A stretch of 64,000 nucleotides of DNA, taken from NCBI GenBank assembly GCA_963576725.1, contig OY755237.1, positions 64,333,423 through 64,397,422 on the forward strand, given 5' to 3'. Made by a program: the position numbers and the translations under genes. The notes below the pieces were generated by a model. It was given only the letters and a program-made list of their open reading frames with translations. It had not been told where the DNA came from and searched no databases. Positions 1 through 64,000 of the stretch are shown in pieces (position 1 is the stretch's first letter; each line of letters starts with the position of its first letter). This DNA is from Azorinus chamasolen. Taxonomy: Eukaryota > Mollusca > Bivalvia > Cardiida > Solecurtidae.

Positions 1-148
1 AACTAAAGCATTGGAAGGGTTGAACATCCCCCACTCCCCACACTATCACCCAAAAAGAATTGGGAGATCTATTATGATCAAAATGATTTATAATACAGCG
101 GAACCTCTCTATACAACAGGCTCTAGAAAAAAGGACTGCATGTGGGTC

Positions 149-490
149 TTAACCCTTTCCTTTATATTAACGTGTTTTCACGCATTTGCGAACAGAGTAG
201 ACCCAGATCAGGGTCTGCTCTGTTTGCTGATGAAATTTGAAAGATCTGTTTCTTTACTTTCTAAAATGGCTACACTGTTCTACCTTCCATATTTAGTTGT
301 AACTATTTTTCCATGCATATGCAGTAGGTACTGAAACTTGGAATACACATAGAACACCCATTCCCTGTTCTATATTTATATAATTTCTAAAGCAAACAGA
401 GCAAACCCTAATCCTTTATGAGCCATCTGATCAGGGTCTACTCTGTTTGCAAAGAGGTGAAAAAGGCGTTTATATTATGAAAAGGGTTAA
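149..490 (+). repeat. Two fused family A copies
   Basis: Starts and ends with TTAA. The left copy (149-355) has a shortened hairpin (about 203-230, GACCCAGATCAGGGTC); it runs into an inverted second copy whose hairpin (about 400-465) is degraded. Confidence 0.7.
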
Positions 491-668
491 TACCCAGATC
501 AGACACCGGTAGGAGCCATCTGATCAGGGTCTGCTATGTTGGCTGATTCTACAGTTTATGCCATGTCCAAAATATCCTGTGTTCATTTGCCATTATAAAA
601 ATTCAGCAAATGAATTTTTATGATGTCATAACATTTTACATGAATATTCATAGAGCAAAGGGTGGAAG
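491..668 (-). repeat. Family B, 5'-truncated reverse copy
   Basis: Starts inside the hairpin right arm (GGAGCCATCTGATCAGGG) and runs to ACATGAATATTCATAGAG, the B end, without a clean TTAA. Confidence 0.65.
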
Positions 669-1179
669 ACCCTGTCCATTGTAGAGACATTACACTGGAT
701 TGGTAGGTGCCCCCAGACTGTGGCATACTATATTACCTGTTGGTGTTTGCCTTCCTTAAGCATACCTGTGGATACATCTGCTCCGGATTAGACCAGTGCT
801 AGGTTTAACACTCCAGCAATTTAATTTGACAGTTCCGAGAGAGATTTTTTGACTAATTCTCAACTTGGATAAGATTTTTATCGGATTTTGCAAAGGTGTT
901 TGCCATTGGTGAAAGTTTTGTGTTAAGTAGAGATTAAAAAAAATAAATCATCAAAAAGTGAAATAGAATGTGAAAGTGAACTTTTTGCAAATTGGAATCT
1001 GTATGAAATTGGCGAAAATTTGTAACAAAGTGAATGAAAGTTGAACTTTCTCACAACCTTCTAAATCGATTTTCTTTCTGGATATAGATGCAGATTTTTC
1101 TAAACTGAATAGTGATGAGGACTTAAATACTGTTTGAGTGGTGGATGAATTAATCTCTTTGAATTTCATGTGATTCAAG
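669..1179. other. Intron, nothing recognised
   Basis: AT-rich sequence without hairpin, splice-flanked frame or known repeat that I can see. Confidence 0.5.
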
Positions 1180-1413
1180 TTAATTCTTTACTTGATGAAT
1201 ATTCATGTATGAAATAATGACATCATACATATGTGTTAGATTAATTGGTATAATAGCTCATGGAGATGGACATTTTTGGCCATGGCAGACACTTTAGAAT
1301 CTTATCTATATTATATCATAAGCAAACGGAGCAGACCCCTGATCAGACAGCTCCTACAGGAGCTGTCTGATCTGGGTCTGTTCTGTTTGCAAAGGCATAG
1401 AGTGAAGGGTTAA
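1180..1413 (+). mobile_element. Family B element
   Basis: TTAATTCTTTAC...GTGAAGGGTTAA. Hairpin at about 1322-1390 with apex GCTCCTACAGGAGC. Confidence 0.8.
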
Positions 1414-1436
1414 TGATTTTGCAAGCCAACTAGCCT

Positions 1437-1605
1437 TGTAGAAGCCATCAGATCAGGGTCTGTCCTGTTTGCTGATTGAATTCATTAGATTTGATTCTAC
1501 ATTTTCTGTTGTGGCCAAAATATCCTGTGTTCATACTTGTTATTAAAATTCAGCTAATGAATATTAATGATGTCATTATTTCTTGCATGAATATTCATGA
1601 GGTAA
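1437..1605 (-). repeat. Family B fragment
   Basis: Begins in the hairpin right arm and ends at the ATGAATATTCATG end. Confidence 0.6.
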
Positions 1606-1658
1606 GTTGATGGATGAATACTTTTTTTCTCATTATGCAGTTAGTACAGTAAAGTCTC

Positions 1659-1877
1659 TTAACCCATTCCCTCATAGGCTATTTTTAGACCTTACCTCTT
1701 TGATTAGATCTATGAAAAAGGAGCATTCACTAGAGAAAAGGAAATTTTCAGAATTGTGTTGTTTTGAAACCATTGTGATAAATAGAGCATTTGCTCCTGT
1801 GGAGCAAATGCTCTATTTATCACAATAGTTTCATAAAGTAACTTTTACAGAAGCGTCAATATGCAGGAATGGGTTAA
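1659..1877 (-). mobile_element. Family C element
   Basis: TTAACCCATTCCC...AATGGGTTAA. Palindrome 1766-1832 is GAAACCATTGTGATAAATAG..., apex GCTCCTGTGGAGC (one base pair shorter). Confidence 0.85.
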
Positions 1878-1887
1878 ATAAAGTTTG

Positions 1888-2071
1888 TACAGTAAAGCGA
1901 CCACATTATTTATTAACACAGGAGTCTGAAAAAGTAAATGGTTGCTTAATGCAGGACAAAACTAATGCAGAAAGCTCCTATGGGAGCTTTCTGCATTACT
2001 TTTGTCCTGAATTAAGCTACCACCTGTTTTGCAGATTCAGAATGGGGCTTCTATTGAATGTTTTTACTGTA
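1888..2071. mobile_element. D2 element
   Basis: TACAGTAAAGCG...TTTTTACTGTA with TA ends. Palindrome built on TTAATGCAGGACAAAA..GCAGAAAGCTCC, apex GCTCCTATGGGAGC. Confidence 0.8.
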
Positions 2072-2384
2072 ATACTTTAACCTTTACCATGATAATATTA
2101 TGCTGGTTGCCAAAAATGTCATCTACTGTAATAACCCAAAGTATTTGGACAAATATAGGTAAATAGTGCAGACCAAGATCAAATTGAATTATTTAAATTT
2201 ACAAACTGATGGAGGGGGTTGGGGTCTGGTCGTCTGAATTCTAAGTGTTGAAAGTCATAATTGTGGAGTAAAGGGTTAAGGGACAATGTAAAGTCCTCTA
2301 TGCCGATATCAGAATGGTGCCAGCTTCAACTCGGATCTGTGACAAGTCTTGCATACTTCCAATTCATTCAGGCTTTGATTGTCA
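2072..2384. other. Intron, nothing recognised
   Basis: No repeat or exon evident. Confidence 0.5.
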
Positions 2385-2642
2385 AACTGCATATATCCAG
2401 ATGAGATGCAGAATTACATGGTATCTCATCTGGATCCAAACTGTTTGCAATTGCAGTTCAAGGACAAGGGTATCAACTGACTGCTGCTAATGGTGTGGAC
2501 CAAGAAGCCCTCTGATCAGGGTCTGCTCTGTTTATCATTCAACATCCACTCTCTCCAAATATACCCTTTCATGCTGAATGGACTCATTAATCAAACAATG
2601 ATGAACCATTCCATATTGAAAATTCAGCAATCAAAAGGTTAA
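2385..2642 (+). repeat. K-like hairpin and E fragment
   Basis: 2390-2450 is a weak hairpin (CCAGATGAGAT / ATCTCATCTGGATCC). 2500-2642 is the right part of an E element ending TTGAAAATTCAGC...GGTTAA. Confidence 0.55.
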
Positions 2643-2754
2643 CATGTTTTTACTCCAGGAGCAGCTCAGTTTTAATTAAAACTTGTTTGAAGTTTAACCT
2701 GTGTGAACACTGTGAAATTGGTATTAGCCCTTTCTCTTGCTATTAGTGCACATA

Positions 2755-2832
2755 TCTGCATTTGCTAATAGTGCAGACCCATATGAGACAGCTCCTAGAG
2801 GAGCTGTCTCATATGGGTCTGCACTATTTGCC
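2755..2832. repeat. G-like palindrome without shell
   Basis: GCAAATAGTGC arms around ATGAGACAGCTCC; apex GCTCCTAGAGGAGC. Confidence 0.75.
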
Positions 2833-2924
2833 ATAATGATTCAGTAGCAACATTTGATTAACATGTAAGATAATTAATATTTGTAATGGGTGTAGGTCAC
2901 TTTGAATGTTCAGCTGGAGATAGG

Positions 2925-3171
2925 TTAATCCTTCGCTTGCTGAATTTTAAAATTCATTTCTCCTTCATTACCCATACCCTGTTGTATAATTACATATATC
3001 TTCACTGTGTACAAGTATTACGCTGTGCAATCACTACTGCGGGTGCACTGGTTGCACAATCAACTTGTAAATAGTGCAGACCCTGATGAGACAGCTCCTG
3101 CGGGAGCTGTCTCATCTGGGTTTTCACTATTTACAGGTAGGTATATTGACGCGAATAGCAAGCGAAGGGTT
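2925..3171 (-). mobile_element. Family G element
   Basis: TTAATCCTTCGC...GCGAAGGGTTAA. Palindrome 3066-3136, apex GCTCCTGCGGGAGC; also a smaller inverted pair GCAATCACTAC / GCACTGGTTGC. Confidence 0.88.
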
Positions 3172-3477
3172 AAGCTTCAAACTTTCATTTTGATTCAATC
3201 TGAACTATTTTTGTTAATAACAAAATGAAGCAATCACATTAGTCACTGCTTTCTCTCTGTCTACACTGAATTCAAATCTACTTCAAAGACAGTTTTTAAT
3301 TAATGTTTCTTATCAATTTAAAAGTTAAAGGTGTTAAAAAATACTAGGTGCTGTGCTAGCAAAGATGAGGATGTATGTTTTTTCATGTAATGAGTTTTAA
3401 TTGGTTGTCTGCTATAGCAGAAGTGTGCAGTTGCTGACTTTGCTCTTTGTGTATGATGTATGATTTCCATTTTCTGT
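3172..3477. other. Intron, nothing recognised
   Basis: AT-rich; no hairpin or coding signal seen. Confidence 0.5.
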
Positions 3478-3692
3478 TTAACCCTTACAGTGCGGGACAC
3501 GAGTCACACATGTCCTTTGCAAACAGTGTAGACCCAGATGAGAGGGCGCCTAGAGGAGCCCTCTCATCAGGGTCTGCATTGTTTGTCATATAAATACATT
3601 CTTTAGAAAAAAATCCCTAAATATTCACCGTAAGCTTGCCCTATTTGAATTTTGGATTAGTTAATTTGAAAAATCAGCGTTGTAAGGTTTAA
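3478..3692 (+). mobile_element. Family E element
   Basis: TTAACCCTTACAGTGCGGGA to GTTGTAAGGTTTAA. Palindrome about 3517-3588 with GAGGGCGCC / GGAGCCCTC, so one arm has G for T. Confidence 0.88.
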
Positions 3693-3919
3693 CCCTTTCC
3701 CTGTTCAATATTCATGTAAGAAATTTTGACATCATGAATATTTATCAGATGAAGTTTTATAATGAGAATTTTTTTTCAAGGAAACTTTTTGCTTTGACAA
3801 AAACTGTAGAATCAGATCTATATCATGTCAAAAGCAAACAGAGCCGACCCTGATCAGACTACACAATCTGATTTGGGTCTACACTGTTTGCAAAGGCATT
3901 TATAATTGAAAATGATTAA
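3689..3919 (+). mobile_element. Family B variant element
   Basis: Shares its first TTAA with the E element before it and its last TTAA with the A element after it. The hairpin apex is replaced by ACTACACAATC. Confidence 0.75.
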
Positions 3920-4396
3920 CCCTTTCCCTAATATAAACATGTTTTCACACATTTGCAAACAGAGTAGAACCAGAGGAGCTGTCTGATCAGGGTCTGCTCT
4001 GTTGGCTAATAGAATTTGATAAATCTGTTTCTTTGCTGTCTAAAATGTCTACAATGTTCCACCTTCTATATTTCTTTATAACTGTTTTGTTAATGAATAT
4101 TCAGTAGGTAATGAAATTGACCTTAACCCTTTACCCAATAGCCTGTTTCTAGTTTTCAAGACATATGACCACTTAAAGCAGGTTGAAAGTAAAGCAGAAT
4201 GCGCCTTAAGGCGCATTCTGCTTTACTTGCAGCCTGCTTTAAGCTACCACCTACTAGGATATAGAAAATATTTATTATGCAATATGTTCATGACTGTATG
4301 AATTTGAACTATTTTCTTCAGCAGAGGAATAATTCAAACACGCTAAAAGCCGCTTCTATCAGGTAAAGGGTTAATACAGAACAGGGAAAGGGTTAA
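3916..4396 (+). mobile_element. Family A element, interrupted
   Basis: TTAACCCTTTCCCTAATAT...GAACAGGGAAAGGGTTAA. Part of its left hairpin arm is deleted. It is split at an internal TTAA by the element at 4123-4374. Confidence 0.85.
4123..4374. mobile_element. TTAA element with D1-like palindrome, nested in A
   Basis: TTAACCCTTTACCC...GGTAAAGGGTTAA inserted in the A element. Its palindrome (TTAAAGCAGGTTGAAAGT...) resembles the D1 core, but the apex is GCGCCTTAAGGCGC. The related A copy at 41467-41715 shows the unfilled site CCTTAATATAG. Confidence 0.88.
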
Positions 4397-4526
4397 CTGA
4401 TAAGCAAACAGTGCTGACCCTGATCAGCAGGTATTCTGTCAAGTGTCTTATCCAATTGCAGTTGACATAAAGAAGTTGCCTTGGGTCGATTCAATATGTA
4501 ATTACTGGGGGATTAGGAAGATAAAT

Positions 4527-4588
4527 ATTGCAGACCATGATCTAAGGGCTCCTTCAGGAGTCAACTGATGTGGTCTGCATTGTTTGCA
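4527..4588. repeat. Degraded hairpin
   Basis: GCAGACCATGATC... / GTGGTCTGCATTGTTTGC around GGGCTCCTTCAGGAG. Confidence 0.6.
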
Positions 4589-5194: not shown

Positions 5195-5553
5195 TACAGT
5201 GCTCCCTCCCTACTACGGCCCTCTCAACAACGATTCCCTCCTTACAACAACGCATGTCACCGTTACCGAAACAACAAGGCTCCAGAAACAACATTTTTTA
5301 CCATCGTATTTTCTTTATGCCTCCATCAAACCCTATTTTGTGACCACTCTTTAGAATCGTGACAAAGTGACGATTCTAAAGAGTGGTCACAACATAGGGT
5401 TTGATTGAGGCATAACGATTTTACTTCTCGAAATAAACCTTATCTGGGGATCTGCACAGAAGCTAATTATGGTTGATTTTCCCTTCCCTCTGAACAACAC
5501 ATATTACAATTTTCGTATCCCAAAGGGTGTCGTTGTAGAGAGGGAGCACTGTA
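5195..5553 (+). mobile_element. J element (TA-flanked) carrying the H palindrome
   Basis: TACAGTGCTCCCTCCC...GAGGGAGCACTGTA. In the middle it holds AAACCCTATTTTGTGACC... and its reverse complement, the same palindrome as family H. Confidence 0.85.
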
Positions 5554-6485: not shown

Positions 6486-6666
6486 TTAACCATTTGAATG
6501 CTGAACTTTCAGAGTGGAATGAACCAATGCTCATATAAACAGTATATGAATTTTGAATGACAAACAGTGCAGACCCAGATCAGAGGGCTCCTCCAGGAGC
6601 CCTCTGATCTAGGTCTACACTGTTTGCAAATGACAGCAAACTTGTCTCTTTCGCTGAAAGGGTTAA
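6486..6666 (-). mobile_element. Family E element (divergent)
   Basis: TTAACCATTTGAATGCTG...GCTGAAAGGGTTAA. Palindrome about 6560-6630 with apex GCTCCTCCAGGAGC. Confidence 0.8.
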
Positions 6667-7704: not shown

Positions 7705-7933
7705 TTAACCCATTCCTCCATAGGCTATTTTTAGATCCAACCATTTTGAATAAATCTACCGAAAAGGAGCATTAACTAGAGAAAAGGAAAATTTTACAAT
7801 TTTGTAATTTGAAACCATTGTGATAAATAGAGCATTTGCTCCTATAGGAGCAAATGCTCTATTTATCACAATGGTTTCATAAAGTGACTTTTACAGAGGC
7901 GTAGAAAGGCGTATTTATGGAGGAAAGGGTTAA
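7705..7933 (-). mobile_element. Family C element
   Basis: TTAACCCATTCC...GGAAAGGGTTAA. The palindrome at about 7809-7876 is perfect, apex GCTCCTATAGGAGC. Confidence 0.9.
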
Positions 7934-7934
7934 A

Positions 7935-8649: not shown

Positions 8650-8960
8650 TTAACCCATTTCAAGGGCTTGGCGCAAAACTATTGTAACTCCTTCACAAAG
8701 TGAAGGAGTTACAATAGTTTTGCACCAAGCCCTCGATTTGCTCCCATGATCCCATATATGGGATGTAGGCAAACAGTGTAGACTCTGATCAGACACTGCA
8801 TAATGCGGCGTCTGATCAGAGTCTACACTGTTTGCTGATAGGAATTTCAATATTAAACAAAACTAAAATGAAAATTTAGGCCAGGCACCCCTTAGATAAA
8901 AAAAAATGGACTAATCCAATATATAATCATGGAAGAATCCACTGGGAGCAAATGGGTTAA
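8650..8960. mobile_element. Family L element nested in B
   Basis: Ends are TTAACCCATTT|GCTCCCA and TGGGAGCAAATGGGTTAA, the left one split by element I. Inner palindrome 8769-8837: GCAAACAGTGTAGACTCTGA, apex CACTGCATAATGCGGCG. Confidence 0.82.
8661..8735 (-). mobile_element. Family I 75-bp hairpin element, copy 1
   Basis: 36-bp arms (AAGGGCTTGGCGCAAAAC...) around AAA, flanked by ATTT on both sides (8657-8660, 8736-8739). Two arm mismatches. It interrupts the terminal repeat of L. Confidence 0.88.
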
Positions 8961-9839: not shown

Positions 9840-10193
9840 AAGTCATGAATATTGATGTAATAAATAATAAATGCATTGATATTAATTAACTCATTTTTTA
9901 TGTCATGGACAACAGAATCTTTCGCCATGGCAGAAGCTGTGGAATTAACCCTTTCCCTGTTCTGTATTTAGGCCAAATTTCAATACCTACCGAATAGTCA
10001 TTGAAAAACAGTTACACAAAAATATGGAAGGTGAAACATTGTAGACATTTTAGAAAGTAAAGAACCAGATATATCAAATTCTATTAGCAAACAGAGCAGA
10101 CCCTGATCAGACGGCTCCTCTAGGAGCCATCTGATCTGGGTCTTCTCTGTTTGCAAATGCGTGAAAACACGTTTATATGAGGGAAAGGGTTAA
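9840..10193 (-). mobile_element. Family A element in a B remnant
   Basis: B left part 9840-9944, then an A element with TTAA ends at 9945 and 10190. Its hairpin, about 10086-10153, has apex GCTCCTCTAGGAGC. Confidence 0.85.
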
Positions 10194-12239: not shown

Positions 12240-12340
12240 AAATTACATTTGCAAACAGTGTAGACCCAGATCCGAGGGCTCCTATGGGAGCCCTCTGATG
12301 GAGCCCTCTGATCAGGGTCTGCACTTTTTGTCATTCTGAA
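12240..12340 (+). repeat. Family E core with duplicated arm tip
   Basis: GCAAACAGTGTAGACCCAGA..., apex GCTCCTATGGGAGC; the segment GGAGCCCTCTGAT is present twice in the right arm. Confidence 0.75.
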
Positions 12341-12515
12341 ATCTTTTAAGCTCAGTTGACCATTTCATACTACCGGTAAATCCAGATCTACAAATCGGAA
12401 ATGATGGAAGATTTCGCTTGAAATTCTGCAATCAATAGATCTAGACTAGTACATGTATTTGCAAAGAAAATTGGAAAAGTCGGGAGTTATTCTATGTTAC
12501 TAAACCTTCCCCCCG

Positions 12516-17595: not shown

Positions 17596-17812
17596 TACAG
17601 TAAAACCTCTCTTAACCGGAATTCTAGTTGAGAAGAATTTAGATATTTTAGGCAGGTGACTGCTTAATGCAGGGTGAAAGTCATGCAGAAAGCTCCTCTA
17701 GGAGCTTTCTGCATGACTTCAACCCTGCATTAAACTGTCACCTGTCTCCAAAACCTATATTTATACTAGATTTAACGTCTGGTTAAGAGAGGTTTTACTG
17801 TAATTGGAGTTA
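17596..17812. mobile_element. D2 element
   Basis: TACAGTAAAACCTCTC...GAGGTTTTACTGTA, TA ends. Palindrome apex GCTCCTCTAGGAGC. Confidence 0.92.
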
Positions 17813-27737: not shown

Positions 27738-27977
27738 TTAACCTTTGAAATGCAGGAAATGAGTCACTAATGTCCTTTGCAAACAGTGTAGACTCGGATA
27801 AGAGGGCTCCTAGAGGAGAGGTGTATAGTGATGGCTCCTAGAGGATCCCTCTTATCTGGGTCTACACTGTTGGTCATGTTACACTTTACTATAGAAAAGT
27901 CTCTAAATAGTCACCGTAAACTTGACCTGTTTGAATTTTAGAATAGTCCATTTGAAAATTCAGAGTTGTAAGGGTTA
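27738..27977 (+). mobile_element. Family E element with apex duplication
   Basis: TTAACCTTTGAAATGC...TTGTAAGGGTTAT. GGCTCCTAGAGGA occurs twice, separated by GAGGTGTATAGTGAT. Confidence 0.82.
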
Positions 27978-35150: not shown

Positions 35151-36804
35151 ATTAGCTCACCAGAGCACTTTGTGCTCAGGGTGAGCTTTTGTGATCGCCT
35201 GATGTCCGTCGTGCGTCGGGCGTCGTCCGTCGTCCGTCGTCCCGCGTCAACAATTTGAACCTTTAAAAATCTTCTCCTCTGAATCTACAGGGTTCTCAGC
35301 TTTCATCTTTGGTACATAGCATCACCTATAGGTCCTCTACAAAAGTTATATAAATTATGCCCCTGGGGTCAAAATTGGCCCCGCCCCAGGGGTGGGAAGT
35401 TTTCAATAGAAACATATAGTAAAACTTTGAAAATCTTCTCCTCTGAAACCAGAAGGTTATTAGCTTTCATATTTGGCACATAGCATCATGTTCAGGTCCT
35501 CTACAAAAGTTATATAAATTATGACCCTGGGGTCAAAATTGGCCCCGCCCCAGGGGTGGGCAGTTTTCAATAGAAGCAAATAGTGAAATCTTTGAAAATC
35601 TTCTCCTCTGAAACTGAAAGGCTCTCATCTTTCATATTTGGCACAGAGCATCAAGTCCAGGTCCTTTACAAAAGTTATTTATATTATGGCCCTGGGGTTT
35701 AAATTGGCTCCGCCCCAGGGGTGGGCAGTTTTCAATAGAAATATATAGTTAAAACTTTGAAAATCTTCTCCTCTGAAACTAGAAGATTCTCAGCTGTCAT
35801 ATTTGGTACAGAGCATCATGTGCAGGTCTTCTACAAAAGTTATATAATTTATGCCCCTGGGGTCAAAATTGGCCCCGCCCCAGGGGTGGGAAGTTTTCAA
35901 TAGAAACATATAGTAAACCTTTGAAAATCTTCTCCTTTGAAACCAGAAGTTTCTTAGCTTTCATATTTAGCACATAGCATCATGTTCAGGTCCTCTACAA
36001 AAGTTATATAAATTATGACCCTGGGGTCAAAATTGGCCCCGCCCCAGGGATGGGCAGTTTTCAATAGAAACAAATAGTGAAATCTTTGAAAATCTTCTCC
36101 TCTGAAACTGGAAGGTTCCCCGCTTTCATATTTGGCACATAGCATCATTTTTAGGTCCTCTACAAAAGTTATATAAATCATGGCCCTGGGGTTAAAATTG
36201 GCCCCGCCCCAGGGATGGGCAGTTTTCAATAGAAACAAATAGTGAAATCTTTGAAAATCTTCTCCTCTGTAACTGGAAGGCGCTCAGCTTTCATATTTGG
36301 CACATAGCATCATGTTCAGGTCCTCTACAAAAGTTATATAAATTATGCCCCTGGGGTCAAAATTGGCCCCGCCCCAGGGATGGGCAGTTTTCAATAGAAA
36401 CAAATAGTGAAAACTTTAAAAATCTTCTTCTCTGAATCTGGAAAGTTCTCAGCTTTCAAATTTGGTGCATAGCATCATGTTTAGGTCCTCTACAAAACTT
36501 GTATGAATTATGGCCCTGGGGTCAAAATTGGCCCCGCCCCATGGGTGGGTAGTTTTCAGTAGAAACATATAGAGAAAACTTTGAAAATCTTCTCCTGAAA
36601 CTGAAAGGTTCTCAGCTTTCATATTTGGTTCATAGCATCATGTTCAAGTCCTCTACTAAAGTTATATAAATTATGCCCCTGGGGTCAAAATTGGTCTGCC
36701 CCAGGGCCGGCTAGTTTTCTATAGAAACATATAGTGAAATCTTTGAAAATATTCTCCTCTGATTGTCTGATGAGCGCTTCAGGGCCATTCTGGCCCTCTT
36801 GTTA
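35151..36804. repeat. Long dispersed repeat with 165-bp tandem array
   Basis: Head with inverted pair GAGCACTTTGTGCTC and TCCGTCGTCCGTCG runs. Then about nine units of 164-165 bp from 35271 to 36750, each with CTTCTCCTCTGAAAC, CATAGCATCATGTTCAGG and CCCCTGGGGTCAAAATTGG. Tail GAGCGCTTCAGGGCC..GGCCCTCTTG. A known type of bivalve repeat (memory). Apparent reverse ORFs here follow the repeat. Confidence 0.9.
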
Positions 36805-38704
36805 TGGTCATTATGTCTCCCCCATTTATGGGGAGATATAGTGTTTTTGCCAGAGTTGTCTGTCTGTCCGTCCGTCTGTCTGTCTGTCCGTCACAAACTT
36901 GTGTCGCGCGTATCTCTGAAACCAGTTGGGCTAGAGTCACCAAACTTCACAGGAATGTTCACCAGCATGAGTTGTTGTGCACCTATGGTTTTTGAATTGT
37001 CTCCCCCTGATAATTCTTGAGTTATTGCCCCTGATGACTTAAAATTAGAAAAACTTTGTGTCGCGCGTATCTCTGAAACCGCTGGTACTAGAGTCACCAA
37101 ACTTCACTGGAATGTTCACCAGCATGAGTTGTTGTGCACCTATGGTTTTTGAATTGTCTCCCCCTGATAATTCTTGAGTTATTGCCCCTGATATGAATAC
37201 TTAAATTTATACAAACTTTGTGTCGCGCGTATCTCTGAAACCAGTAGGGCTAGAGTCACCAAACTTCACAGGATTGTTCACAAGCATGAGTTGTTTTGCT
37301 CGTGGGTTTTTTGAATTGTCTCCTGTGGGCTTTTTGAATTTTTCCTGTGAAACCAGTTGGGCTAGAGTCACCAAACTTCACATGAATGTTCACCAGCATG
37401 AGTTGTTGTGCACCTATGGTTTTTGAATTGTCTCCCCCTGATAATTCTTGAGTTATTGCCCCTGATGACTTAAAATTAGAGAAACTTTGTGTCGCGCGTA
37501 TCTCTGAAACCGCTGGTACTAGAGTCACCAAACTTCACTGGAATGTTCACCAGCATGAGTTGTTGTGCACCTATGGTTTTTGAATTGTCTCCCCCTGATA
37601 ATTCTTGAGTTATTGCCCCTGATATGAATACTTAAATTTATACAAACTTTGTGTCGCGCGTATCTCTGAAACCAGTAGGGTTAGAGTCACCAAACTTCAC
37701 AGGATTGTTCACAAGCATGAGTTGTTTTGCTCGTGGGTTTTTTGAATTGTCTCCTTTTAACTTTGGAGTTACTGCCCCTGATGACTTAAAATTAGACAAA
37801 CTTTACTTAGTGTCGTGCATATCTTTGAAACCACTAGGGCTAGAGTCACCAAACTTCACAGGAATGTTCACCAGCATGAGTTGTTGTACAACTGGGATTT
37901 TTGAATTGTCTTCCCTTGATAACTTTGGAGTTATTGCCCCTGATATGATTACTTAAAATTAGAGAAACTTTGTGTCATGCATATCTTTAAAACCACTAGG
38001 GCTAGAGTCACCAAACTTCACAGGAATGTTCACCAGCATGAGTTGTTGTACAACTGGGATTTTTGAATTGTCTTCCCTTGATAACTTTGGAGTTATTGCC
38101 CCTGATATGATTACTTAAAATTAGAGAAACTTTGTGTCATGCATATCTTTAAAACCACTAGGGCTAGAGTCACCAAACTTCACAGGAATGTTCACCAGCA
38201 TGAGTTGTTGTGCACCTGGGTTTTTGTTAATTGTCTCCCCCTGATAATTCTTGAGTTACAGCCCCTGATATGTTAACTTAAAATTAAAGAAACCTTGTGC
38301 TGCCTGTATCTCTGAAACCAGTAGGGCTAGAGTCACCAAACTTCACAGGAAATGTTCACCAGCATGAGTTGTTGTGCATCTGGGATTTTTAATTGTCTCC
38401 CCCTGATAACTTTGGAGTTACTGCCCCTTATGACTTAAATAAGAGAAACTTTACTTTGTGTCACATGTATCTCTGAAACCACTAGTACTAGAGTCACCAA
38501 ACTTCACAAGAATGTTGACTAGCATGTGTTTTTGTGTACCTGGGGCTTTTGAATTGTCTCCCCCTGACAATGTTGGAGTTATTGCCCCTGATGACTTAAA
38601 CATTAGACCCTGATAAGTTTGGAGTTACAGACATTACACTTGTGTATTGGAAAGAGGATGGGAGGGGGAGACATCTGTTTTTGTGACAAAAACAAACCTC
38701 TAGT
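36805..38704. repeat. Long dispersed repeat with ~160-bp tandem array
   Basis: Ends ATGTCTCCCCC (36813) and GGGGGAGACAT (38674). About ten units, each with GTGTCGCGCGTATCTCTGAA, TAGAGTCACCAAACTTCAC and GAATGTTCACCAGCATGAG. 36922-37320 and 37353-37751 are near-identical, a 431-bp higher-order duplication. Confidence 0.9.
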
Positions 38705-40320: not shown

Positions 40321-40730
40321 TTAACTCTTTACTCCATGAATATTCACGTAAGAAATAATGATGTCCTGAATTTTAATTAGATTAATTGTTATAATAGCAC
40401 ATAGGCACAGGAATTTTTTATCATGGCAGAAACTTTAAAATCATATCTACAGTAAAACCTCTCTAAACCGGAATTCTAGTAGAGAAGAATTTAGATACTT
40501 TTGGGCAGGTGACTGCTTCATGCAGGGTTAAAGTTATGCAAAAAGCTCCTTCAGGAGCTTTTTGCATAACTTTCACCCTGCATGAAGCTGCCACCTGTCT
40601 CCAAGACCGATATTTATACCAAATTTAACGTCCGGTTTAGAGGGGTTTTACTGTATATTATGTCATAGCAAACAGAGCAGTCTGTGTTTGTAAAGGTGTA
40701 GAAAGGCATGTTTATGGAGTAAAGGATTAC
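40321..40730 (+). mobile_element. Family B element interrupted by D2
   Basis: TTAACTCTTTACTCC...GAGTAAAGGATTA. The hairpin is reduced to GAGCAGTCTGTGTTTG. Its end lies 26 bp before an exon. Confidence 0.83.
40448..40655. mobile_element. D2 element nested in B
   Basis: TACAGTAAAACCTCTC...GAGGGGTTTTACTGTA. Palindrome with apex GCTCCTTCAGGAGC; arms read GCAAAAA where most copies have GCAGAAA, changed on both sides. Confidence 0.93.
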
Positions 40731-40756
40731 ATGGAGACATTTATATATTTCCACAG

Positions 40757-40913
40757 AGGGAGACTAGAGACCAATGCTGAACAGTGGTTGCGCCTCCTCC
40801 ACACCATACAGGACTTGCTAGCCTGGATTCTGAAAAAACAGCATGAGCTGAAAGCTCAGAGACCTATTGGGGGAGACAACTCAGCACTGCAGAAACAAAT
40901 GGAATTCAACCAG
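40757..40913 (+). CDS. DMD: Dystrophin exon: start of last spectrin repeat (human exon 57)
   Basis: 157 bp, phase 2 in, 0 out, between TTCCACAG and GTATGCC. The peptide GRLETNAEQWLRLLHTIQDL then LLAWILKKQHELKAQRPIGG aligns with human HLEASSDQWKRLHLSLQELL and VWLQLKDDELSRQAPIGG. The conserved tryptophan (LLAWIL) marks helix A of the final spectrin repeat. Human exon 57 is also 157 bp, as far as I recall. A family B element with a nested D2 ends only about 27 bp upstream, so the acceptor tract lies right beside transposon sequence. Confidence 0.96.
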
Positions 40914-41060
40914 GTATGCCAGAGTTTCCTCCCTTATGTAGAAAATTTGTATATCCTTTGGTAGTTCCTATTTGAGATAATGAGCTACATTATTCTGCCG
41001 TAATGATTACCTGATGAATATAAGAAATAATGATGTCTTGAATATTTATTAGCTGTTTTT

Positions 41061-41466: not shown

Positions 41467-41715
41467 TTAACCTTTTCCCTCATATAAACGTGTTTTCACG
41501 CATTTGCAAACAGAGTAGACCCAGATCAGACGGCTCCTAGAGGAGCCGTCTGATCAGGGTCTGCTCTGTTTGCTGATGGAATTTGATAGATTTGTTTCTT
41601 TACTTTCTAAAATGTCTACAATGCTCCACCTTAAATATTTGTTTATAATTATTTTGTTAATGGATATTCATTAGTATTGAAACTTGGCCTTAATATAGAA
41701 CAGGGAAAGGGTTAA
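41467..41715 (+). mobile_element. Family A element, reference copy
   Basis: TTAACCTTTTCCCTC...GGGAAAGGGTTAA. Hairpin 41506-41573 (68 bp), apex GCTCCTAGAGGAGC, two arm mismatches. Shows the unfilled site CCTTAATATAGAACAGG. Confidence 0.93.
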
Positions 41716-42495: not shown

Positions 42496-42703
42496 TACAG
42501 TAAAACCTCTCTATAATGACCACTAAATTGTGTGAATTAGTTGGTATTTAGAGCAGGTGGCTGCTTAAAACAAGGTGAAAGTAAAACAGAACGCTCCCAT
42601 AGGAGCGTTCTGTTTTACTTTCACTTTGCTTTCAGCAGCCACCTGCCTTTAACACAAAATAATTGATGTAATTTAGTGGTCGTTATAGAGAGGTTTTACT
42701 GTA
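42496..42703. mobile_element. D1 element
   Basis: TACAGTAAAACCTCTC...GAGGTTTTACTGTA. Apex GCTCCCATAGGAGC. Confidence 0.93.
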
Positions 42704-42995: not shown

Positions 42996-43292
42996 TACAG
43001 TTGAACTTCGATATCTCGAACTCGGATATTTCGAAAATTCACTCCTTTCAAAACTTACAATACAGAATTGCTCTGAAATGTATTGCTACAGATATCTAGA
43101 AACACATGTGACGGCTTAATACAGATCTAAAGTAATGCTGAAAGCTCCTACAGGAGCTTTCAGCATTACTTTAGACCTGTATTAAGCTGTGGCCTTGAGA
43201 AATTGTTCAGATTAGAAACCGGATGACTCGTAGTCTCCTCTTGTCTCGAACTAATTTACCTTGAAGTTTGAGTTATCGAAGTTTCAACTGTA
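42996..43292. mobile_element. Q element (TA-flanked) with D2-type palindrome
   Basis: TACAGTTGAACTTCG...CGAAGTTTCAACTGTA, pogo/Tigger-like ends. Inside is GGCTTAATACAGATCTAAAG, apex GCTCCTACAGGAGC, clearly the D2/D3 core in another shell. Starts 31 bp after an exon donor. Confidence 0.9.
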
Positions 43293-49611: not shown

Positions 49612-49818
49612 TATAGTGAAACCCCGCTATTGCGACCACCTAAGAGATATAATTCTGGATGTTTGATGCAGGTGGTAGCTTAATGCAGGACAAAAGTAAT
49701 GCAGAAAGCTCCTAGATGAGCTTTCTGCATTACTTTTGCCCTGCATTAAGCAACCGCCTGCTTATAAAGACACCCATGTCGATTCATTATGTGGTCACAT
49801 TAGAGGGGTTCTGCTGTA
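49612..49818. mobile_element. D2 element
   Basis: TATAGTGAAACCCCG...GGGGTTCTGCTGTA. Apex GCTCCTAGATGAGC. Confidence 0.9.
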
Positions 49819-49864
49819 CATGTATTCATGAAATACAAGGTTTTATGCATGGATTTACTCACAG

Positions 49865-49959
49865 GTGGAAAGAGGTTCAGTTATCTGCAGAAGACAGGCT
49901 GAAGAATCTCCATGATGCATTGAGAGCATTTGGTCCAAACTCCCAGCACTTCCTTTCAG
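49865..49959 (+). CDS. DMD: Dystrophin exon: hinge 4, just before WW (human exon 61)
   Basis: 95 bp, phase 2 in, 1 out, between ACTCACAG and GTATATA. The peptide RWKEVQLSAEDRLKNLHDAL then RAFGPNSQHFLS is nearly colinear with human RWKLLQVAVEDRVRQLHEAH then RDFGPASQHFLS. Human exon 61 is 79 bp; its 3' boundary is the same codon. A D2 element ends 46 bp upstream and a pyrimidine-rich direct repeat begins about 80 bp downstream. Confidence 0.96.
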
Positions 49960-50039
49960 GTATATATATATCGCCTTTTCAATGCTGCCTATTCTGTCTG
50001 TCCTTTTGTCTATGTCTCATTCTGCACAAGAGATTTCTT

Positions 50040-50205
50040 GTTTCATGGTATTCTGTCTTTCTCTCTGTCATTGTCTCTGTATCTGTTTATCTCTTTCTGT
50101 GCCTTTTCCATAGCTGTCTTTCTCTCTGTCATTGTCTCTATCTGTTTTTCTCTTTCTGTGCCTTTTCCATAGCTGTCTCTCTCACTCCCCCACTCTCTCT
50201 CTATC
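50040..50205. repeat. Pyrimidine-rich direct repeat, ~60 bp x 2
   Basis: TGTCTTTCTCTCTGTCATTG...TGTGCCTTTTCCATAGC occurs twice (about 50054 and 50114). Frames read through it are artefacts. Confidence 0.85.
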
Positions 50206-50242
50206 TTTTGTTTACAGTGTATTTGTTGTATTTCCTTGTGTC

Positions 50243-50497
50243 AACTGTAGCATTTCTCTGTAATCAAATAGATACAAATGTCAGCTGTAGCATTCCTCTG
50301 TAATCAAATACATACAAATGTCAGCTGTAGCATTCCTCTGTAATCAGATACATACAAATGTCAGCTGTAGCATTCCTCTGTAATCAGGTATATATACTAG
50401 TGTCAACTGTAGCATTCATTTCAATCAAATACATACTAGTATAAACTGTAGCATTCCTCTGTAATCAAATACATACTAGTGTCAACTGTCGCATTCT
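50243..50497. repeat. Minisatellite, 40-bp unit x 6
   Basis: AGCTGTAGCATTCCTCTGTA then ATCAAATACATACAAATGTC. Confidence 0.92.
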
Positions 50498-51664: not shown

Positions 51665-51839
51665 TACAGTAAAACCCCTTTAAACTGGAATTTTGGTAGA
51701 GAAGAATTTAGGTACTAAAAGGCAGGTGGCTCCTAGAGGAGCTTTCTGCATGACTTTCACCCTGCATTAAGCTGCCACCTGCCTAAAAGTATCTAAGTTC
51801 TTCTCAACTAGAATTCTGGTTTAGAGAGGTTTCACTGTC
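51665..51839. mobile_element. D2 element, left arm deleted
   Basis: TACAGTAAAACCCC...GAGGTTTCACTGTC. Left outer arm GGCAGGTGGCT joins directly to the apex CCTAGAGGAGC. Confidence 0.87.
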
Positions 51840-59375: not shown

Positions 59376-59461
59376 AACAAGAAGTGGGAAGATCCGCGTG
59401 TTGTCATTTAAAGTTGGCATCATCATCATGTGTAACGGCCATGTCGATGAAAAGTATAAAT
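59376..59461 (+). CDS. DMD: Dystrophin exon: EF-hand linker (human exon 66)
   Basis: 86 bp, phase 2 in, 1 out, between TCCTTCAG and GTAAGAAA. The peptide [20 protein letters not shown] then NGHVDEKYK aligns with human [20 protein letters not shown] then KAHLEDKYR. It joins the two EF-hand regions. Same length as human exon 66. Confidence 0.97.
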
Positions 59462-59524
59462 GTAAGAAACTTTTACACTTTACCTAATGAATATTCATGG
59501 CAAAAATAATTAATTTAGGAAAAG

Positions 59525-59663
59525 AGTAGAACCTGTCTTAAGCGGTCATCAAAAAGAGGTCTAATTACAGGTCTGTAAAGCAGAAGGTTGCTTATTAACC
59601 ACCTGGCTTTTAAGACTCCTATCTTCAATAAATGAATGGCTGCTTAGGACAGGCTCTACTGTA
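59525..59663. mobile_element. D3 element, palindrome deleted
   Basis: GTAGAACCTGTCTTAAGC...CAGGCTCTACTGTA; the core is reduced to GGTTGCTTATTAACCACC. Confidence 0.83.
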
Positions 59664-59664
59664 G

Positions 59665-59870
59665 TACAATAAAACCTCTCTGTAACGACCACTTAATTAC
59701 ATCTAGTATTTTGTGTTGAAGGCAGGTGGATGCTTAAAGCAAGGTGAAAGTAAAACAACGCTTCTACAGGAGCGTTCTGTTTTACTTTCACCTTGCTTTA
59801 AGCAGCCACCTGTCGAAAATACCAACTAATTAACACAATTTAGTGGCCGTTATAGAGAGGTTTGACTGTA
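59665..59870. mobile_element. D1 element
   Basis: TACAATAAAACCTCTC...GAGGTTTGACTGTA; apex GCTTCTACAGGAGC. Lies one base after D3. Confidence 0.92.
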
Positions 59871-59904
59871 CATACCTAGCAGAACTTTGATAAAAAAGGG
59901 AAAA

Positions 59905-60015
59905 CACTTTGGGATCAGATCTATATTGTTCCAAGCAGCAAATACAGCAGACCAAGATCTTTTACCTTCTAAAGAAGCTTTGTCTGATCTGTTCTAATCT
60001 GTTTGCAAATACACA
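59905..60015 (+). repeat. Family B fragment
   Basis: TGGGATCAGATCTATATTG to CTGTTTGCAAATACAC; worn hairpin. Confidence 0.6.
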
Positions 60016-60243
60016 AATGTGGGTCTTTATCAAGTATTTCATTTCTTCAAATTCTTTGATTTATTCAAAACCTACATATTTGCATCCATTGTATCTAAAT
60101 GGCTTAATTTCTCTTTCTGAGTTTGCATAATGTTTTTGTATTTCTTTACCAGTTGTGGAAAGCCTAGTCATTCTGTTATTTTCAGCACCTTTTCAACTAT
60201 CATTCTGATCTTAATGACTTTTGATCTGGGACCACAGATGTTA

Positions 60244-60456
60244 TTAACACATTATCCCCTAGTGACGCATTTTTGCGCATCTATAAATTCACATTGTGAA
60301 ACCATTGTGATAAATAGAGCATTTGCTCCTATCTATTTATCACAATGGTTTAAAAATTCTTAAAAAAAAAATTCCTTTTCTCTTGTTAATGCTCCTTTTC
60401 GGTAGATTAATTAAAAAAGATTGGGTAAAAAAATAGCCTAGGATAGAATGAGTTAG
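60244..60456 (+). mobile_element. Family C element
   Basis: TTAACACATTATCCCC...GAATGAGTTAG. Right arm lost its tip (GCTCCTATCTATTTATC). Confidence 0.85.
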
Positions 60457-60474
60457 CCATATTTGGGATAGAGT

Positions 60475-60688
60475 TATCCCTTTACTTCATGATTATTCAT
60501 GTAAGAAATAAAAAAAATACTGACAGTATGAACACTTTTTTTACCATAACAGAAACTGTGGAATCAGATCTGTATTATTTCATATTAAGTAAACAGAGCA
60601 GACCCTTTAGGAGTAATTTGATCTAGCTGGGTCTACTTTGTTTGCAAAGTCATTACAAGACATGAAGACATACCTATGAAGTACAGAG
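60475..60688 (+). repeat. Family B copy
   Basis: TCCCTTTACTTCATG to CTATGAAGTACAGAG; half of the left hairpin arm lost. Confidence 0.7.
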
Positions 60689-60795
60689 ATACATTGTCTG
60701 TTCCTTACTGTGAATACTACAAAATACTGCCTTTGCAAAAATTGTCACATGATTTGGTTCTCCTTGTACATTATCAGTGATTTTCTGTGTTTCAG

Positions 60796-60953
60796 TTTTA
60801 TTCCGATTAATAGCAGACAAGAATGGGTTTTCTGACCAGCGGAAGCTCGGCCTGTTGTTACACGACTGTATGCAAGTTCCGCGGCAGCTTGGCGAAGTGG
60901 CAGCATTTGGGGGTAGTAATGTGGAACCCAGTGTTCGGAGCTGCTTTGAACAG
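60796..60953 (+). CDS. DMD: Dystrophin exon: EF-hand region 2 (human exon 67)
   Basis: 158 bp, phase 1 in, 0 out, between TGTTTCAG and GTATGAA. The peptide [20 protein letters not shown] then [20 protein letters not shown] and [13 protein letters not shown] is very close to human [20 protein letters not shown] and [20 protein letters not shown]. It forms the second EF-hand-like domain. Same length as human exon 67. Confidence 0.97.
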
Positions 60954-61002
60954 GTATGAAACCTTCGATATACCATTTTGACATAAGTATTAATGCTGAT
61001 CT

Positions 61003-61216
61003 TTAAACCTGTACCTCATGAATAATTATGAGAGAATCTATTATTTCATGAATATTTATTTACTGCATTTTTACAACGGTACATAAAGAAGGGAACATTT
61101 TGCCATGACAGAAACTTTAAAATCAGTTCTATGTAATTCAGTGAGCAAACAGAGAAGACACTGATCAGGCAGCTTCTATCTTTGCAAAGAGGTGAAAATG
61201 CATCACTAAGAGTTAA
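61003..61216 (+). repeat. Family B copy
   Basis: TTTAAACCTGTACCTCATG to AAGAGTTAA; right hairpin arm lost (GGCAGCTTCTATCTTTGC). Confidence 0.75.
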
Positions 61217-61421
61217 CCCATTCCCTCATTTTGACGACTCTGTAAAAATCAATTTGTGAAACCATTGTGATAAATAGAGCATTTGCTCCTATAGGAGCAA
61301 ATGCTCTATCTATCACAATGGTTTCAAATTCTAAAATTTTCCTTCTCTAGTTAATGCTCCTTTTCGGTAGATTTATTTAAAGAGGTTGTATCTAAAAATA
61401 AACTATGAGGTAATGGGTTAA
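61213..61421 (+). mobile_element. Family C element
   Basis: TTAACCCATTCCC...GGTAATGGGTTAA. Palindrome about 61258-61325, apex GCTCCTATAGGAGC. Shares TTAA with the B before it. Confidence 0.91.
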
Positions 61422-61442
61422 AAGGTTAAGACTGGTAGCAGC

Positions 61443-61898
61443 TTAACCATTTACGCCATGAATGTTCATGTAAGGGATAATGACTATTCACTAGATTAAC
61501 CCTTCGCTTGCTAATCGCGTCAATATACCTACCTGTAAATAGTGAAGACCCAGATGAGGTCTGTACTATTTACAAATTGATTGTGCAATCATTCTACAGC
61601 AGCGATTGCACAGCGAAATACTTGTACACAGTGAAGATATATGTAATTATACAACAGGGCATGGGTAAAGAAGGAGAAATGTATTTTAAAATTCAGCAAG
61701 CGAAGGGTTAAGTGTTATAACAGAACATAGACACAGGAAATGTTGGCCATGGTAGAAATTATAGAATCATATCTATGTTATATGGTAAGCAAACAGACCA
61801 GACCCTGATCTGATGGCTCCTTGAGGAGGAGCATTCTGATCTAGGTATGTTCTGTTTGTAAAGGCGTAGAAAGGCATACTTTTGGAGTAAAGGGTTAA
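61443..61898 (+). mobile_element. Family B element interrupted by G
   Basis: TTAACCATTTACGCC...GAGTAAAGGGTTAA. Hairpin about 61790-61861, apex GCTCCTTGAGGAGGAGC. Confidence 0.87.
61496..61711 (+). mobile_element. Family G element nested in B
   Basis: TTAACCCTTCGCTTGC...GCGAAGGGTTAA at the TTAA of the B motif TAGATTAANTGTTATAA. Hairpin tip deleted (GACCCAGATGAGGTC). Confidence 0.92.
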
Positions 61899-61966
61899 TG
61901 CAGGGTGAAAGTCACGCAGAACGCTCCAAATGAAGCTTTGTTTATGACTTTCATCCTGCATTAACA
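61895..61966. repeat. D2 core fragment
   Basis: TTAATGCAGGGTGAAAGTC.. / ..GACTTTCATCCTGCATTAA with worn apex; no terminal repeats. Confidence 0.72.
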
Positions 61967-61991
61967 GTACTAAAACCATATAAGATAATTA

Positions 61992-62241
61992 TTAACCCTT
62001 CGCTTGCTATTCACGTCAATATACCTACCTGTAAATAGTGAAGACCCAGATGAGACAGCTCCTGCAGGAGCTGTCTCATCAGGGTCTGCACTATTTACTA
62101 GTTGAGTGTGCAACCAATGCACTCCACAGCAGTGATTGCACAGCGAAATACTTGTACACAGTGAAGATATATGTAATTATACAACTGGGCATGGGTAAAG
62201 AAGGAGACATGTTTTTTAAAATTCAGCAAGCGAAGGGTTAA
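61992..62241 (+). mobile_element. Family G element, reference copy
   Basis: TTAACCCTTCGCTTGC...GCGAAGGGTTAA. Palindrome 62030-62099, apex GCTCCTGCAGGAGC. Confidence 0.93.
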
Positions 62242-62265
62242 ATAAATAGATTATAGGTTTTTCAA

Positions 62266-62392
62266 GGTACAAGTGGTAGCTTAATACAGCTTGAAAGCAA
62301 TGTAGAAAGCTCCCCTTGGAGCTCCCTGTATTGAAAACTCCCCTTGGAGCTTCCTGTATTGCATTCATTCTGCATTGAGCAACCACTTGTGT
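62266..62392. repeat. D2 core with duplicated apex side
   Basis: CTCCCCTTGGAGCTCCCTG and ATTGAAAACTCCCC: about 28 bp spanning the apex are present twice. Confidence 0.72.
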
Positions 62393-62613
62393 GAAAAATG
62401 CAAGCAGTTCCTTTTAAAAAAGTTACAACCCGGGGGCATTTATTAGATACAATATGGTATGTAGTTATGGCCTTTTTTATCATCAACAAGAGCATTGAAA
62501 CTTCTGATCTGAAATCTCTTCAGTGCTAATTTGATTGAAAGAACATTTTCTTGGAGTTTGCTCTGTTTGTGATATTTTCATGTTTTTATAAACATACATT
62601 CTATATTTTCCAG

Positions 62614-62780
62614 GTTGATGGAAGGACAGAGATAGAAGTAAAGCATTTCTTGGAGTGGTTGCGGCGAGAGCCCCAGTCACTGGTGTGGGTGCCAGTCATG
62701 CACCGTCTGGCAGCTGCTGAAAACGCCAAACACCAGGCCAAGTGCAATATTTGTAAAGCTTTCCCCATTGTTGGATTACG
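62614..62780 (+). CDS. DMD: Dystrophin exon: EF-hand end and start of ZZ zinc finger (human exon 68)
   Basis: 167 bp, phase 0 in, 2 out, between TTTTCCAG and GTAAGAGA. The peptide [20 protein letters not shown] then [20 protein letters not shown] and [16 protein letters not shown] matches human [20 protein letters not shown] and [23 protein letters not shown] supplies the first zinc ligands of the ZZ finger; the second human C of ECPI is F here. The remaining ligands must lie in the next exon, outside the window. Same length as human exon 68. Confidence 0.97.
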
Positions 62781-62881
62781 GTAAGAGAACTGTAGACTAG
62801 TGGTATAGATAAAAATGTCACAATAGATATAGTACCCTCTTTGTTTAGTGGTATAGATAGTACTTTGTACAATAATTCAAG

Positions 62882-63115
62882 TACAGTAAAAACCCGCTAC
62901 TACTAAATTTTAGTAATGAGGAATTTATGTCTTTGTAGGTAGCTGACTGCTTAATGCTTTGTAGGTAGATGGCTGCTTAATGCAGGGTGAAAGTCATGCA
63001 GAAAGCTCCTATAGGAGCTTTCTGCATGTCTTTCACCCTGCATTAAGCTGACACCTGTGTTAAAGATCAATAATGTTGCGTACTTGAGTGTTCGTAATAT
63101 CAATTTTTTACTGTT
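62882..63115. mobile_element. D2 element with partial arm duplication
   Basis: TACAGTAAAAACCCG...TTTTTTACTG. GCTGCTTAATGC with TTTGTAGGTAG is doubled in the left arm; apex GCTCCTATAGGAGC. Confidence 0.87.
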
Positions 63116-63149
63116 GTTTTATTTTTTTTTAAAAATTGAATAAAGTAAA

Positions 63150-63352
63150 CTTCGCTAATCCAATCACTCAGATAAGTATTTTAACTGTCATTTTCAAACA
63201 GTGTGGACCCAGATCAGAGTCCTCTGATCAGGATCTGTACTGTTTATCATTGAAAATCGTCCCACAAATTTTACCCTTTCATGGTGCATGGACTCTACCA
63301 ATAAACACTGATGGACTATTCCACTCTGAAAATACAGTCTTGAATGAGTTAA
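63150..63352 (+). repeat. Family E copy
   Basis: CAAACAGTGTGGACCCAGAT; tip deleted (CAGAGTCCTCTG); ends TTGAATGAGTTAA, shared with the next A. Confidence 0.75.
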
Positions 63353-63587
63353 CCCTTTCTCTCATATAAACGTGTTTTCACGCATTTGCAAACAGAGTAG
63401 ACCCAGATCAGACGGCTCCTAGAGGAGGGTCTACTCTGTTTGCTATTGGAATTTGATAGATCTGTATCTTTGCTTTCTAAAAATGACTACAATGATCCAC
63501 GTTCCATATTTCTTTATAACTACTTTGTTCATAAATATTCAGTAGGTATTGAAATTTGGAATAAACATCGAACAGGGAAAGGATTAA
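63349..63587 (+). mobile_element. Family A element
   Basis: TTAACCCTTTCTCTC...GGGAAAGGATTAA. The right arm lost its inner half (CTAGAGGAGGGTC). Shares both TTAAs with its neighbours. Confidence 0.9.
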
Positions 63588-63822
63588 CCCTTTCACTCAT
63601 GAATATTTTTACAAAACTTCATGACTACATGAATATTTATTTCTTGAATTTTTATAAAGGCCAATGAACAAGGGAATGTTTGGTCATGGCAGAAACTGAA
63701 GAATCAGATCTATAATATTTCATAGGCAAACAGAGCAGACCCTGATCAGGCGGGAATGTTTGATCTGGATCTAATCTGTTTGCAAAGGTGTGACAAGGCA
63801 TTGACATGAAGTAAAGGGTTAA
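63584..63822 (+). mobile_element. Family B element
   Basis: TTAACCCTTTCACTC...AGTAAAGGGTTAA. Worn hairpin around GGCGGGAATG. Confidence 0.86.
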
Positions 63823-63901
63823 GACAGGTGGCAGCTTAATGCAGGTTTAAAGTCATGCAGAAAGCTGCTCTTGGAGTGAGTTTCATGTCTTTCACCCTGC
63901 A
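63823..63901. repeat. D2 core fragment
   Basis: CAGGTGGCAGCTTAATGC.. / ..CTTTCACCCTGCATCAA, no terminal repeats. Confidence 0.7.
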
Positions 63902-64000
63902 TCAACCCTTTCCTTCATGTAAACACCTTGTCACACATTTGCAAACAGAGTAGACCTAGATCAGATGGCTCCCATAGGAGCCGTCTGATCAGGGTCTACT
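63902..64000 (+). repeat. Family A element, cut by window end
   Basis: TCAACCCTTTCCTTCATG..., hairpin with apex GCTCCCATAGGAGC; the rest lies outside. Confidence 0.8.

Follow-up and report, generated by a model that had tools for sequence, protein, structure and literature searches.

One hairpin apex shared by palindromic elements with different arms and two insertion classes in a bivalve dystrophin-type gene

The 64-kb stretch of the Azorinus chamasolen genome analysed here (contig OY755237.1, positions 64,333,423 to 64,397,422; hereafter the window) carries short palindromic elements whose hairpin cores differ in their arms and yet close on the same apex, GCTCC-NNNN-GGAGC. A first-pass annotation had reported this apex as common to at least seven element families; the observation is real, but it is confirmed only in part and needs trimming. 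Exact matches to GCTCCNNNNGGAGC number 46 in 64 kb, against a mean of 0.02 in shuffled sequence, although the apex is not general, as four further types of core (H, I, J and K) lack it. To judge from their ends, the elements are non-autonomous palindromic miniature inverted-repeat transposable elements (MITEs), some of a TTAA class with piggyBac-like ends and others of a TA class with Tc1/mariner-like ends. Tentatively, and with less than even confidence, we favour the explanation that an old hairpin tip was kept as a self-annealing clamp while hairpin-templated copying rewrote the arms. As a variant of palindromic MITEs, one tip common to different arm superfamilies and shell classes appears to be new here.

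Hairpin-core profiles were run with the apex columns masked, so that copies were found through their arms, and partial matches were counted. This yielded 173 core matches (A 78, E 32, C 25, D2 22, G 9 and D1 7) spanning 13,523 bases, or 21% of the window. All but one of the exact apexes (45 of 46) start within these matches (A 14, D2 9, C 9, E 6, G 4 and D1 3), while the one exception, at 51729-51742, runs over the border of a D2 match that is itself partial (51732-51784). The half-sites are identical in the consensi of all six profile families. The centre had been described as mostly T-NN-A with a free inner pair, and this holds: T and A enclose a free pair in 37 of the 46 exact apexes, the fuller form of the apex being GCTCCT-NN-AGGAGC. 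We relied on 69 copies with intact spacing, which include no K or J and exclude any copy with a gap or insertion in the inner core, because in the larger, gap-allowing sets gaps were placed freely at the masked tip, inflating mismatches there, and because those sets were impure, the E set (26 copies) including five K cores and the A set (51 copies) including J. Both apex halves are exact in 38 of the 69 copies (A/E/G 19 of 44, C 8 of 8, D 11 of 17) and exactly one half is exact in 20.

The flanks of the cores bear out the two proposed insertion classes, TTAA and TA (Table 1). The elements that hold A, E, G and C cores measure about 176-253 bp and have TTAACCCTTT-type ends. Their cores are placed closer to one end than to the other; in the typical A layout the two distances are 128 bp and 25 bp. 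Such ends, with at most two mismatches, occur on both sides within 320 bp for 63 of 145 apex-spanning cores, a count in which some pairs are ends of neighbouring elements while those with matching ends measure about 176-253 bp. These elements are short and non-coding, with terminal inverted repeats and TTAA, as TTAA-class MITEs are. D cores sit mostly in TA-flanked shells, for which we distinguished by eye, among the flanks listed, at least five end types (ACAGTAAAACCTCTCTATAACG, ..CCCCTCTAATGCGACC, ..CCTCTCTAAACCGGAATTC, ACAGTAGAACCTGTCTAAG and ACAGTTGAACTTCGATATCTCGAA), and in the same way found the TA-flanked ACAGT...ACTGT inverted ends of the TA class. One D-type core, at 4162-4252 and with tip GCGCCTTAAGGCGC, lies within a TTAA element. 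Sharing rises inwards: the ends are most variable, then the arms, then the tip.

Table 1. Positions in the window of representative elements and cores with the shared apex, and of cores with other tips
Feature	Position	Strand	Details
Complete A element	9945-10193	+	TTAACCCTTTCCCT...AGGGAAAGGGTTAA, 249 bp; core 10073-10168; apex 10114-10127 (GCTCCTCTAGGAGC)
E element, TTAA shell	6486-6666	+	181 bp; core 6547-6638; apex 6587-6600
G element, TTAA shell	61992-62241	-	250 bp; core 62016-62112; apex 62058-62071
C element, TTAA shell	7705-7933	+	TTAACCCATTCCTCCATAGG..., 229 bp; core 7798-7891, 35-nt perfect arms; apex 7838-7851
D1 element, near full-length palindrome	42496-42703	.	arms 102 nt, 86%; ACAGTAAAACCTCTCTATAA-type ends; core 42552-42648; apex 42593-42606
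D2 core, shell with ACAGTAAAACCTCTCTTAACCGGAATTC-type ends	17650-17746	.	apex 17692-17705
D2 core, clearly different TA shell	43104-43196	.	ACAGTTGAACTTCGATATCTCGAA...; apex 43144-43157
TTAA element with D-type core	4123-4374	+	TTAACCCTTTACC...GGTAAAGGGTTAA, 252 bp; core 4162-4252; tip GCGCC-TTAA-GGCGC 4201-4214
A core, reversed	41492-41588	-	both arm asymmetries (C/T at 17, T/A at 10 from apex); apex 41533-41546
H palindrome without the apex	5312-5418	.	tip GTGAC-AAA-GTGAC; other centres 5060, 6118, 29509, 46526
I palindrome without the apex	8663-8733	.	CTCCTTCAC-AAA-GTGAAGGAG; second copy centre 32798
J core	8768-8843	.	A-type arms, other tip; best local match of the start of contig L001
K core	2375-2451	+	A-type outer arms, GGATCC replacing AGACCC; longer tip without GCTCC

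The arms fall into fewer groups than the seven families first listed. In local alignments with 2000 shuffles, the half-arms of A, E and G without the apex align mutually (p<0.0005 each) and those of D1 and D2 are likewise homologous (p<0.0005); A against D gave p 0.88 (D2) and 0.31 (D1). Weak local similarities, all uncorrected, were found for A-C (0.010), E-C (0.016), G-C (0.019), G-D2 (0.03) and E-D2 (0.054), the remaining values being higher, and these cross-superfamily results are not convincing because 28 pairs were tested. Judged by alignment, there are three arm superfamilies, A/E/G, C and D1/D2, perhaps two at greater depth. A and D have in common, in register, CAGA-NN-GCTCCT-NN-AGGAGC-NN-TCTG, where CAGA occupies positions 3-6 from the apex, and nothing steady in fixed register beyond it. 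The annotation's statement that the arms of C, D and A/E/G are unrelated outside the apex overlooks the CAGA of A and D, and its suggestion of a single hairpin ancestor is supported for A with D, but not for C. Three cores (12242-12344, 27766-27887 and 62269-62390) seem to have a duplicated tip region, which would look like slippage or a switch during copying at that point.

Within families, identity to the family's own consensus (inner arm, apex and centre NN, in that order) was 0.914, 0.875 and 0.554 in A (28 copies), 0.905, 0.882 and 0.773 in E (11), 0.970, 0.980 and 0.800 in G (5), 0.981, 1.000 and 1.000 in C (8), 0.867, 0.958 and 0.583 in D2 (12), and 0.970, 0.940 and 0.800 in D1 (5). The gap-allowing set gives lower apex values, 0.782 in A and 0.693 in E against about 0.87-0.90 for the arms, which are depressed by alignment freedom and by K and J; apex gaps there reach 13% in A and 21% in G. 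Across 174 close pairs, which are non-independent and which in A/E/G mix subfamilies, raising the flanking-pair value, differences per site were 0.063 in the arm, 0.284 in the flanking pair, 0.093 in the apex, 0.193 at T..A and 0.402 at NN, the last being about six-fold more variable than the arms. Deletion midpoints fall in the central 8-bp bin in 16 of 41 cases in A and in 8 of 10 in C. Loss of the apex among copies thus keeps pace with that of the arms, and the loop dinucleotide goes most quickly, C excepted.

The picture between families is different. The annotation had named an apex no better conserved genome-wide than the arms as the finding that would speak against its pattern, and this is what we see within five of the six profile families (not D2) in the window, but not between families. 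The two apex-flanking pairs take the forms CG, TG, CA, GG, AA, AC and TT among the family types, and the apex is the same in all seven; a single D3 copy departs from it, with GCGCC. Within C, D1 and D2 (A, E and G were omitted because their subfamilies are mixed), the flanking pairs are not hot, showing 7 differences at 160 sites where the apex shows 20 at 392, against at least 6 flanking-pair changes and no apex change (one with the D3 tip) between families. The corresponding Fisher p values of 0.0015 and, with the D3 tip, 0.007 are a guide only, the between-family counts being hand-made minima and the families having first been noticed by their apex.

There is good support for the claim of pairwise rewriting of the arms, since changes on the left and on the right occur jointly. 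Agreement between the two sides lies above 2000 shuffles at k=1, 2, 6, 19, 22 and 26 (pairs counted from the apex) in A/E/G, with z of 4.0-6.2, and above shuffles at k=1, 5, 7, 8, 10, 16, 17, 24 and 26 in D, with z of 3.4-4.8, values that are inflated by shared subfamily ancestry. Comparison of consensi gives five double changes and one single change between A and G, two and one between A and E, and four double with two single or other changes between E and G; whatever the inflation of z, these double changes call for an explanation. At position 10 from the apex, A/E/G cores carry a T/A asymmetry by which the two directions of the nearly symmetric core can be told apart.

What the sequence shows directly is a shared tip, shells of two classes, arms that change in pairs, deletions at the tip and a variable NN. 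In the explanation we favour, the tip would be an old hairpin seed, present by descent in A and D and by descent or capture in C; a common origin with C is presumed rather than seen. Once the strand is single, the GC-rich tip would anneal to itself and act as a clamp, and a polymerase folding back on this clamp might copy one arm from the other. Fold-back copying of one arm would change both sides together while the clamp is kept, and breakage and misrepair falling at the hairpin tip would make the loop dinucleotide vary. A GC-rich clamp of five pairs closed by a T-NN-A loop would suit the role of a fold-back primer. In a study of rRNA genes, template switching at hairpins is proposed to make and maintain paired stems with the loop kept, and four-base loops are enriched among hairpins with instantaneous compensatory changes (PMC8794818; here and below, statements taken from cited papers refer to the parts of their text that were available).

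Several findings weigh against this explanation. Arm mismatches are fixed through A/E/G (T/A at k=10 in 38 of 44 copies, C/T at k=17 in 25 of 42), which argues against wholesale arm copying; copying tracts would therefore have to be very short, or selection would be acting instead. Very short template-switch tracts fit, and selection on paired or protein-bound arms would fit too. The paired changes observed are mostly isolated single pairs, and changes of this kind are uninformative on the process in the available text of PMC8794818 (9,406 of 9,931, not enriched). There is no sign of loop inversion, oriented A/E/G copies reading TCTA in 10 cases and TAGA in one. NN is invariant in the eight spacing-intact C copies, and the centre of C alters through base loss. 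Inside every family but D2, the inner arm is conserved at least as well as the apex or nearly so, and the test of changed arm columns without the flanks is weak (P 0.25 for A/E/G, 0.08 for D). In register, the C consensus agrees with that of A, E, G, D1 or D2 at two of 12 positions at most. Finally, K and J have A-type arms without this tip; both stand outside the between-family count and would weaken the contrast between apex and flanks.

A possible alternative, if one on the unlikely side, is that the apex is a recognition site, GCTCCT-NN-AGGAGC (GCTCCTNNAGGAGC) being bound as DNA by a dimeric protein, which might belong to the host or contain a domain resembling the cysteine-rich domains (CRDs) of piggyBac-type transposases, with the half-sites kept and the centre free. 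The likeness of the half-sites across all six profile families around a free NN, and the retention of the apex between families while flanking pairs change, are both consistent with this, and there is a precedent in the CRD dimers of piggyBat and piggyBac, which bind palindromes of element-specific sequence whose centre, in piggyBat, is A/T-rich (PMC11707139). However, the same tip occurs in TA and TTAA shells, which should need different transposases, and it lies tens of bp inside the element rather than beside an end. The variability of NN is also expected from damage at the tip, and J and K manage without the tip.

Descent alone, with one ancestral hairpin behind all three cores and the apex an unchanged remnant with no role, we consider unlikely. 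CAGA-NN-GCTCCT in register in both A and D speaks for it, as do the clear single lineages formed by D1/D2 and by A/E/G and the weak local likeness between C and each of A, E and G (uncorrected p, 0.010 to 0.019). Against this, the apex is not mutationally cold, differing in close copies like the arms or more, and yet it outlasts neighbouring pairs between families, and C has nothing else in common in register. It is very improbable that the sharing arose by chance, whether as plain coincidence or because base composition drove the tips towards one stable GC-rich form. In favour of this, the independent superfamilies are only three (two if A and D are one), and H and I, which also have a common tip (TCAC-AAA-GTGA), suggest that short tips may converge. 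Against it, the post hoc probability that three of five arm superfamilies have the same six-base tip is about 6e-7 to 5e-6, and if A and D count as one lineage the value for two of four is still only 1.5e-3 to 4e-3; H and I themselves show that other tips are possible. Two further ideas were dropped, a histone-type stem-loop, whose GG foot C and D do not retain, and a likeness between the apex and the CTCC present at some TTAA ends, which is not seen in the ends of E and G.

A broader reading, which we hold to be rather unlikely, would make the tip a mobile or self-perpetuating module, either a folding clamp or a binding site, that survives replacement first of stems and then of transposon ends, so that MITEs of two superfamilies would have been built inside out. 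Among 71 listed palindromes, H (five centres) and I (two centres) lack the apex, and none of these seven is among the 173 core matches. Their arms are unrelated and their tips alike, TCAC-AAA-GTGA in some copies and GTGAC or GTCTC in others, and a second shared tip of this kind would strengthen the modular reading. I carries CTCCT/AGGAG directly outside its tip, and H cores seem by eye to occupy at least two settings. K is found at 13 loci in the window, seven of them hand-picked seeds; five of the 13 are among the core matches as weak E matches and eight are absent, while J is counted there as A.

The closest description we found is a MITE-like consensus 1 from the haemoglobin genes of Lucina pectinata, 210 bp long with imperfect terminal inverted repeats of 30 bp and a central palindrome of 77 bp at 96% identity, present as several copies in introns and promoters (PMC4732748). 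Compared by description only, it has the same build as the window elements; no target-site duplication was identified there, and the available text describes no shared apex. It was the sole close description in the searchable literature on bivalve and palindromic MITEs, shared tips, compensatory arms and foldback modules, and the parts available of PMC10294476 and PMC6210712 describe no such elements. A search with apex and arm letters in searchable full-text literature, a scope that leaves most subscription journals outside, returned nothing related by title.

Among known systems, piggyBac-type TTAA elements and MITEs resemble the TTAA elements of the window in their flanks, an assignment made from the ends only, but the palindrome in the window is internal and far from the ends. 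Ends of the CCCTTT type are typical of the piggyBac group. The TA shells, which we take to be of the Tc1/mariner family, are like TA MITEs of that type in their TA flanks and ACAGTAAAACC-type ends and unlike them in having several end types around one D core. In prokaryotic repetitive extragenic palindromes (REPs), hairpins whose stems differ are united by a short GTAG or CGTC motif, and RAYT transposases are thought to mobilise the GTAG repeats (PMC3733652). That tag is unpaired and stands at one end of the repeat, whereas the motif in the window is paired, apical and in an animal gene; the window elements are not of the REP/REPIN kind, which is marked by an unpaired GTAG/CGTC tag at the hairpin foot and a RAYT partner.

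Scanning genome contigs gave a single match, to a J-type core with a different tip at the end of contig L001 of the Spirochaeta metagenome-assembled genome LUC14. This J core, of animal type and with a TTAA end, takes up positions 1-90 of the bacterial contig, its extreme end, and is likely host DNA joined during assembly. The name LUC14, together with a report of Spirochaeta in the gill microbiome of a lucinid (PMC6461927, in which that name does not occur), makes a lucinid clam the probable source. Viral contigs gave no match to the A arm, the C arm with part of the apex, the A arm with the full apex, the D arm with GCTCC, a D-shell end or the A arm with GCTCC; one A core found nothing in plasmids and phages, and a translated A core nothing in protein collections.

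A frame at 62539-62784 has a 56-residue match to dystrophin (E 3.3e-21) and a Pfam EF-hand_3 match; the window is therefore part of an animal dystrophin-type gene on the + strand, and the remainder is probably mostly intron. Two further + strand stretches, 40641-40964 and 49716-50303, look like dystrophin repeats by eye only, with no such Pfam match at either. No tRNA was found in the 64 kb, no Rfam family reached its gathering score in the window, and a Pfam scan of eight window open reading frames detected no transposase domain. The stretch 35261-38592 is made up of tandem arrays, whose units are about 157-165 bases long and which also show higher-order periods, and no core match among those listed falls between 34940 and 38941.

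If the pattern is genome-wide, these elements would provide replicates, set up by nature, for testing how long palindromes form and persist, with the tip constant, the loop variable, the stems rewritten pair by pair and the ends exchanged between transposon classes. It would also bear on the old open question of how MITEs originate without obvious autonomous parents, and on the heavy palindrome load of this dystrophin-like gene. More generally, it is a hint that the tip and the stem of a hairpin can evolve independently, each as a module.

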